A stretch of 64,000 bases of DNA from Chloroflexota bacterium (lineage in GTDB: Bacteria > Chloroflexota > Dehalococcoidia > Lucifugimonadales > UBA3495). The position numbers and the translations under genes are program-made. Shown in pieces: positions 29,042 through 48,935 of this stretch. The stretch spans positions 1 through 64,000 of the forward strand of contig JAPPGG010000045.1 in NCBI GenBank assembly GCA_028875055.1, in the 5' to 3' direction. The notes beneath the pieces are model-generated. The model was not told the DNA's origin. It did no database searches and was given only the letters and a program-made list of their open reading frames with translations. Position 1 is the first letter of the stretch; every line of letters starts with the position of its first letter.

Positions 29042-29117
29042 GGGGATATAGCTCAACTGGGAGAGCGCGGCGTTCGCAATGCCGAGGTTGGGGGTTCGAG
29101 CCCCCCTATCTCCACCA
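29042..29117 (+). tRNA. tRNA-Ala(CGC)
   Basis: A full cloverleaf is visible: acceptor GGGGATA/TATCTCC, D-stem GCTC/GAGC, anticodon stem CGGCG/TGCCG with loop TTCGCAA (anticodon CGC), T-stem GGGGG/CCCCC with TTCGAGC, and an encoded CCA. It is first of three tRNA genes spaced by 4 and 19 bases, probably one transcript. Confidence 0.96.
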
Positions 29118-29121
29118 ACGT

Positions 29122-29197
29122 GCCCCTGTAGCTCAGAGGATAGAGCGGCGGCGTCCTAAGTCGCGCGTCGGGGGTTCGAGTCCCTCCAGGGGTACCA
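29122..29197 (+). tRNA. tRNA-Arg(CCT)
   Basis: The cloverleaf has acceptor GCCCCTG/CAGGGGT, D-stem GCTC/GAGC, anticodon stem GCGGC/GTCGC with loop GTCCTAA (anticodon CCT, reading AGG), a T-loop TTCGAGT and encoded CCA. Position 32 is G rather than the usual pyrimidine. Confidence 0.95.
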
Positions 29198-29216
29198 TAT
29201 AGTCAAACAACGGCGC

Positions 29217-29294
29217 AGGAGCGTAGCTCAGTCTGGTCAGAGCGCTGGTCTCCAAAACCAGTGGTCGGGGGTTCGAATCCTCCCGCTCCTGCCA
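29217..29294 (+). tRNA. tRNA-Trp(CCA)
   Basis: The cloverleaf has acceptor AGGAGCG/CGCTCCT, D-stem GCTC/GAGC, anticodon stem CTGGT/ACCAG with loop CTCCAAA (anticodon CCA), T-loop TTCGAAT, discriminator G and encoded CCA. It is the last tRNA before the peptidase gene. Confidence 0.96.
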
Positions 29295-47435: not shown

Positions 47436-48413
47436 TCAGCTCCCGAGCAGCCTGGTCAGGGTCTCGTCCAGCAGCGACTCCGGGGTGAACTGTTCAAACT
47501 TGGCTTGCACCAGTCCGTCCTGATCCATTACGAAAGTCCACGGCTCGCTGGGGAGCCCCCATTCTTCCACCGCCGGGACCTTCGTCGCCGCGAAGCGGTT
47601 GCCTTCGATCAAGTGCGGGTCCTGGAATACTTCCACGTGAATGAAGTTTACCCGGCCCTCATATCGTTCTTTGAGGCTTTGCAACACGTCCAGCTGTGGG
47701 CCGCAGGTGGCGCTGACGCAGAAGGCAGGCGTGGAGAAAAGGACCACCAGGGGCTTCCCAACATCCAGGGCTTCGGCTACCGACAGTTGATAGAATCCGG
47801 GGTCGGGGGTCGGGTCGCTGGAAATTTCGGCCAGATCGTCAACCTGGTCGAAGGTAGGAGTATCGCTGCGCGGGGCCGGTAAGCCTATCGCCGGGGTAGC
47901 CGGGTGTTCGCGGACCCTCACGGCGGTTGTGGCTTCGACCGCCGCCCCGGTCACGTCTGTGGCGGACACCCTTAGCTCCCAGAGCCCTGGATTCTGCCTG
48001 GTGGCTTCGCCTGCCACGTCAAACTCAATCTCGGCTACGAAGACTCCCCTTCCGCTGCCCTCGGGAGGCCAGGACAGAAAGTGGGCTGTTATTGCCTCTT
48101 TCGCCTGCGGGCCCGCGCCGCCCGGCGGGGTGAACATTGGCGCCACGTTGGCGGTGCCGGCATTTACCGGGACGTTGTTGCGGTCCACCAGGGCAAAAAT
48201 AAGCCGGTTATTGCCCTTGGCCAGATCGGAACTCACCATCAGGGCGCTGTATTGGGGCCCACCCAGTTCAGGGATGTCTCCGTCACCGCCGCTGGGGGAT
48301 AAACAGGCAGTGACGACCAACAGGACAGCCAGCAATGCCACAAAGGCAACAAACCTGGAAACCACCAGCCCGGCAGGGCCCAGTGTACGGGGGCGGTGTG
48401 AATCTGAAAGCAT
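47436..48413 (-). CDS. Thioredoxin-fold lipoprotein
   Basis: This 325-residue lipoprotein (lipobox LLVVTAC) has a beta-rich N-terminal region followed by a thioredoxin-like domain from about residue 200: KPLVVLFSTPAFCVSATCGPQLDVLQSL, then VNFIHVEVF and PWTFVMDQDGLVQAKFE. The cysteines are spaced CVSATC rather than CxxC, so redox chemistry, if any, is atypical. The ATG at 48413 lies inside the 8-bp target duplication of the adjacent mobile element, so its original upstream control has been replaced by the element's end. Confidence 0.85.
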   Translation of the reverse strand: MLSDSHRPRTLGPAGLVVSRFVAFVALLAVLLVVTACLSPSGGDGDIPELGGPQYSALMVSSDLAKGNNRLIFALVDRNNVPVNAGTANVAPMFTPPGGAGPQAKEAITAHFLSWPPEGSGRGVFVAEIEFDVAGEATRQNPGLWELRVSATDVTGAAVEATTAVRVREHPATPAIGLPAPRSDTPTFDQVDDLAEISSDPTPDPGFYQLSVAEALDVGKPLVVLFSTPAFCVSATCGPQLDVLQSLKERYEGRVNFIHVEVFQDPHLIEGNRFAATKVPAVEEWGLPSEPWTFVMDQDGLVQAKFEQFTPESLLDETLTRLLGS

Positions 48414-48419
48414 AAGGAG

Positions 48420-48927
48420 GGGAATTATATACCTGTGTACCCACGGAAGAGTGAGGGATAATTGGAATGCAAAAGCGCCTATTCGATGAGCCAGAAGCAA
48501 TATCATATTTCGTCCACAACAAAAACACAGCCAAGTCCATGTTTGTCAACTTGGCCTTGCTCTTACTTGATGGGGCAATTGACCTTGACCAATCTTTAGA
48601 TGGCGTCGGTGAACCTCTGCAGTCGATACAGTCCCGCATGCCCTATCCAGAGAATCCACGAAGGGGCAACGGCCTGAATGAGTGTACTTGCAGCAGGTGC
48701 GGGCGGACGGGGGTGATCCTCAAGTTAAACCTCCGGGCGGGTTGGTTGTGCCTGCGCTGCAACCGGGAATACATGGTAGCAATGGGCTGGGAGGACGAAT
48801 ACGGGCGCCTTTTGCCCGATTGTGAGAGTTGCAACGGTATCAATCAATCTACCTGCCCCGCCCGATGCAGGGAGGCTGAATTTAAGCGGCATGACGAGTT
48901 CTTTGGGTACACAGGTATATAATTCCC
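48420..48927. mobile_element. 508-bp element with perfect 24-bp TIRs and 8-bp TSD
   Basis: The left end (48420-48443, beginning GGGAATTATATACCTG) is the exact reverse complement of the right end (48904-48927). ATAAGGAG flanks it directly at 48412-48419 and 48928-48935, a perfect target-site duplication. It holds one gene, 48467-48922, which runs into the right inverted repeat. The DNA is visibly less GC-rich than its neighbours. An 8-bp duplication and ends starting GG fit several insertion-sequence families, but the element is too short for a transposase gene of normal length. Confidence 0.92.
48467..48922 (+). CDS. Cys-rich zinc-ribbon protein of the 508-bp element
   Basis: This 151-residue protein fills the mobile element and ends at a TAA inside the right inverted repeat, so its last residues (GYTGI) are encoded by the repeat. 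It contains one zinc-ribbon-like pair, CTCSRC with CLRC 20-odd residues later, and a second Cys cluster, CESC followed by CPARC. No DDE or other transposase core is visible. It may be cargo, a DNA-binding accessory protein, or the N-terminal zinc part left from a larger transposase. No known family is recognised. Confidence 0.75.
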   Translation: MQKRLFDEPEAISYFVHNKNTAKSMFVNLALLLLDGAIDLDQSLDGVGEPLQSIQSRMPYPENPRRGNGLNECTCSRCGRTGVILKLNLRAGWLCLRCNREYMVAMGWEDEYGRLLPDCESCNGINQSTCPARCREAEFKRHDEFFGYTGI

Positions 48928-48935
48928 ATAAGGAG

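Follow-up and report, generated by a model that had tools for sequence, protein, structure and literature searches.

Introduction

Mobile insertion cassettes (MICs), such as MIC231 of Bacillus cereus and the qnrD and qnrS2 mic elements, are an established kind of mobile element in which two inverted insertion sequence (IS) ends and a target duplication accompany a passenger that replaces the transposase, and they are mobilised in trans (PMC3913671, PMC3129680). The IS1595 family is known for target duplications of 8 bp and a zinc finger at the N-terminus (PMC8101967; PMC12561309), and includes 'transporter IS' (tIS) with passenger genes (Siguier et al. 2009, as cited in PMC3129680, PMC8101967 and PMC12561309).

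Here we report a 508-bp cassette from a Chloroflexota genome (Dehalococcoidia/SAR202-type), which is very probably an IS1595-family MIC, i.e. a pair of borrowed ends with a passenger, moved in trans by a transposase that a full-length relative encodes. Like known MICs, it has IS-type terminal inverted repeats (TIRs) at both ends, a target duplication (TSD) and a predicted passenger gene in place of a transposase gene, and its mobilisation in trans is predicted. However, the ends of known MICs are those of IS231 (IS4 family), whereas those of the cassette are shared with IS1595 elements, and its cargo, unlike that of known MICs, is predicted to be an orphan small zinc protein. With the IS1595 family it has in common the ends, the 8-bp duplication and the GG(G) termini, but at 508 bp it lacks the IS1595 transposase of its full-length relatives. 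It resembles MITEs in being short and non-autonomous, with inverted repeats and a target duplication; MITEs, however, have no coding capacity and usually many copies, whereas a 151-aa frame fills most of the cassette, which is present in one genomic copy. Judged by its layout, the cassette would represent a known kind of element, as a specific IS1595-ended member with an orphan gene. Our literature search, which covered few subscription papers and does not prove priority, found no description of a MIC with IS1595 ends.

Structure and insertion of the cassette

The window analysed is a stretch of 64,000 nucleotides (contig JAPPGG010000045.1), which also contains three consecutive tRNA genes (29042-29291; Rfam). 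The perfect 24-bp inverted repeats, the 8-bp direct repeat and the 151-aa frame described in an earlier note on this DNA were reproduced exactly (Table 1). The TIRs are exact reverse complements (GGGAATTATATACCTGTGTACCCA) and form the sole pair of perfect inverted repeats longer than 14 bp with arms within 4 kb in the whole window; the longest inverted repeat in shuffled windows (n = 5) was 13-15 bp. Within the window, the octamer ATAAGGAG is confined to the two positions next to the TIRs. The G + C content of the element is 52%, that of the window 60%.

Table 1. Features of the cassette and its neighbour gene (positions in the window).
Feature	Position	Strand	Remarks
Neighbour gene, lipoprotein/thioredoxin-like	47436-48413	-	Label from reading the sequence; start codon inferred (CAT 48411-48413)
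Left TSD copy	48412-48419		ATAAGGAG; the sister species has one copy, ATAAGGGG, at its empty site
Left 24-bp TIR	48420-48443	+	CG comes next, as in the sister-species element at its transposase-distal (IRR-type) end
Passenger gene, 151-aa zinc-binding protein (predicted)	48467-48922	+	Stop in right TIR; weak uS14 type Z likeness
Right 24-bp TIR	48904-48927	-	AA on the inward side, as in the sister-species element at its transposase-proximal (IRL-type) end
Right TSD copy	48928-48935		ATAAGGAG; from the sequence

Each of the four further genomes available for the genus has the flanking genes. In G004 (RHO2_bin_36), a sister species from this genus, the site is empty: the joined flanks with one 8-mer align without gaps over 608 bp at 79% identity, and the G004 sequence at this position is ATAAGGGG. 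Most simply read, this clean site means that the two species had already split when transposition brought in the 508 bp. The cassette is a real, recent insertion, as the earlier note had proposed while naming the lack of an empty site in relatives as an observation that would speak against it. The statistics of the TIRs and TSD, together with the empty site, rule out a chance repeat.

The cassette's own genome (3.75 Mb, 98.4% complete) contains one copy. No IS1595 transposase domain was found in this assembly (98% complete), and such a domain is present in all four sister genomes; in the cassette's genome it has either been lost or lies in an unassembled repeat. Because the copy is single and no IS1595 transposase is assembled, current mobility of the cassette in its own genome is putative. 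Contig C49 of the same genome (L037 3922-4621) carries two opposed degenerate IS1595-like ends, with 7 and 6 mismatches, flanking a 207-aa frame; the pair is possibly an old second cassette or a chance occurrence, and the available relatives do not span the locus.

The insertion lies directly upstream of the likely start of the neighbour gene (48411-48420, minus strand) and has thus separated it from its original upstream region. Read outward, the TIR contains TATAAT. Given the position at the likely start and the outward TATAAT, expression of the neighbour may be altered.

The passenger gene

The only gene of the cassette is the 151-aa frame, which ends with a TAA and, as had been noted before, encodes no transposase core. 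Its cysteines form a CxxC...CxxC arrangement at residues ~75-98 and a further cluster at ~119-134. A frame of at least 150 aa, in any reading frame, has a chance probability of P ~0.004 in a Markov simulation of the element, and codon usage shows a weak host-like bias (synonymous P ~0.05); together these values make coding likely, not proven.

The earlier note had proposed a search for the protein elsewhere, which gave no recognisable relative in a sample of the family, in 250 genomes of the order and in 393 of the class (~640 for order and class), and none in phages, plasmids or viral contigs. A plasmid match (E 0.8) was rejected, as was a match in one genome of the class (G321; E 5.7e-5 per genome), in which five stops interrupt the frame and the cysteines are not conserved. 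Pfam gave no match even at E 10, its IS1595 zinc ribbon included. The best library match of the zinc motif, which it weakly resembles, is ribosomal protein uS14 type Z: over the CxxC-CxxC region, ribosomal protein S14 was matched weakly in NCBIfam (E 3e-4, far below the family cut-off) and in PDB (E 0.005). An AlphaFold model had a mean pLDDT of 39 and was not used. The likeliest reading of the passenger is that it encodes a predicted zinc nucleic-acid-binding protein, without homologue and putatively expressed.

These data also bear on the possibility that the cassette is a plain MITE, i.e. an internal-deletion remnant of an IS1595 element with a fortuitous 151-codon frame and no functional protein. 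The size is in the MITE range, the codon bias is weak and one antisense frame has a similar codon score, no promoter-like site was found, and none of the searches returned a homologue, all of which would suit such a remnant. We nevertheless regard it as rather unlikely, since a frame of this length is improbable by chance, eight cysteines stand in paired motifs that include the uS14-like one, the interior shares nothing with the full-length elements found, and other transposase-less elements with such ends carry frames of 70-137 codons.

According to the earlier note, the zinc protein might be the stripped N-terminus of a transposase. A related reading, that it is a regulator derived from the IS1595 transposase zinc ribbon which would attach to the ends and either repress or help the transposase, is improbable. 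The spacing C-x2-C-x(16-17)-C-x2-C is nearly that of the IS1595 zinc ribbon, and in a search with a profile of 22 IS1595 N-termini the protein ranked first, just ahead of 200 shuffles; its score, however, was 7.0 bits vs 6.4 for the best shuffle. This value and the lack of a Pfam zinc-ribbon match argue against both versions; the uS14 type Z likeness counts against the regulator, and an interior shared with no full-length element found leaves the stripped N-terminus unsupported.

Full-length relatives and the source of the ends

The ends were searched for at up to 3 mismatches in the 393 genomes of the class, and public genomes and the order were scanned in addition. In the class, opposed end pairs lie 2.3-3.0 kb apart; overall, near-identical ends flank elements of 2.3-3.8 kb in Chloroflexota, Caldilineaceae, Rhodothermaceae and a closed Binatia chromosome, which are full-length relatives of the kind whose existence the earlier note had anticipated. 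Intact relatives encode a transposase of 310-350 aa, and the transposases of the scanned relatives contain DDE_Tnp_IS1595 (E 1e-34 to 3e-39) and Zn_ribbon_IS1595 domains. Most of the transposase-carrying elements have ends with at most 4 mismatches to those of the cassette. The complete element of genome G048 measures 3,015 bp (contig C29; L133 846-3860), and its transposase scores 193.7 bits with NF033547 (NCBI cut-off for IS1595, 75). The Binatia element (3,838 bp; OX638322.1 2749170-2753007; L042/L057) includes a transposase, and its first 22 end bases are identical to those of the cassette. Several relatives have perfect TSDs (AATAGTAA, TTTCGTTT, AACGAGGC, TTTGTTTA), which are 8 bp long wherever recognisable; none was found at the G331 and Binatia elements. 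A single end in G194 was a chance match inside an acyl-CoA ligase gene.

The IS1595 subgroups are ISPna2, ISH4, IS1016, ISSod11, ISNwi and ISNha5. In a tree of local sequences, built without ISfinder references, the transposases with these ends form a group separate from the majority of the remaining IS1595 transposases in the same bacterial family.

Most relatives have additional cargo, namely DNA methyltransferases that may or may not include nuclease domains, a D12 methyltransferase together with a NotI-type endonuclease, or an 865-aa protein, a putative type-I-like methylase/specificity fusion labelled from reading the sequence. Restriction-modification cargo, HNH fusions included, recurs with these ends (G048, Binatia, L032, L038, L132). 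No interior DNA or protein is shared between the cassette and any fetched full-length element, and derivation of the interior from a known one was rejected.

With IS1595 transposases present between the same ends, the IS1595 origin suggested by the earlier note was borne out and its ISL3 alternative was set aside. The note had also considered a distinct element type. That the 151-aa protein is the small recombinase of such a type is hardly credible: it is indeed the sole gene in an element that moved, in an assembly without IS1595 transposase, but such ends are those of IS1595 elements that encode complete DDE transposases, no catalytic core can be recognised in the protein, and there is one copy. 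The layout is that of a MIC. Neither is the cassette an autonomous IS1595 element, as its protein lacks a DDE domain and its 508 bp contain no transposase, in agreement with the non-autonomous nature proposed earlier.

Other transposase-less elements with similar ends were found in G019 (521 bp, 7/8 target duplication, 104-aa frame), G567 (450 bp, 137-aa frame) and G564 (320 bp, 70-aa frame), the latter two without a clear duplication. None of these frames has a convincing family match. The exception among such elements is a 1,609-bp element of Caldilineaceae (JAPPAJ010000249.1; L040 6268-7876) with IS1595-type ends and a 7/8 duplication, whose sole gene encodes a TnpB of 503 aa with a Cas12f1-like TNB domain (E 3e-19) and a stop codon in the end repeat. 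The G019 element (L136 1413-1933; CATOSK010000003.1) has an additional end in its interior, 133 bp from the left one, and the stretch between these two resembles the 3' part of a tRNA gene.

A likely donor in the sister species

In G004, five contig ends break off shortly after entering an element that has the identical 24-bp end. Outside the ends, C529 and C533 have GTAAATTT in common and C96 and C263 CTTTTATT, each a perfect 8-bp TSD matched on both sides, and C94 has AAAGGGAA; copies with different 8-bp flanks were what the earlier note had proposed to look for. These sets of flanks indicate at least three insertions of one assembly-breaking repeat. Inside the ends, the G004 element continues with CCCACG... 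on one side and CCCAAAACGCTTGAC... on the other, the latter almost identical to the end that adjoins the transposase in the complete G048 element. As the interior is unassembled, the presence of a transposase is deduced from this 38-bp end. The left end of the cassette reads CCCACG and the right end CCCAAA, so that both end types seem to be represented in it once; the likeness, of two extra bases per side, is suggestive.

IS1595-type ends elsewhere are paired with transposases and the cassette has none; it is most likely a MIC that was mobilised in trans. In the proposed mechanism, the two IS1595-type ends enclose one small predicted passenger gene without a transposase; a full-length IS1595-type element that shares these ends, such as that present at least three times in the sister species, would supply the transposase in trans; and this enzyme would act on the cassette ends and insert the cassette with an 8-bp duplication. 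The cassette probably came by way of a donor lineage, of which the transposase copy has disappeared or is missing from the assembly.

Significance

For this cassette, a sister species provides both a clean empty site and a probable cognate transposon. The find indicates that IS1595-type transposons, which are known carriers of passenger genes, also yield cassettes without transposase. It is possible, though we propose it tentatively, that one IS1595-type end sequence is used by many non-autonomous cassettes, which would acquire single small orphan genes (zinc proteins, a lone TnpB and others) and spread them in trans among Chloroflexota and other uncultured bacteria. If true, this would be a gene-capture-like system parallel to the transposons with restriction-modification genes. 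The cassette itself is probably a very small natural gene-carrier, and may represent a route by which orphan small genes move among uncultured bacteria.
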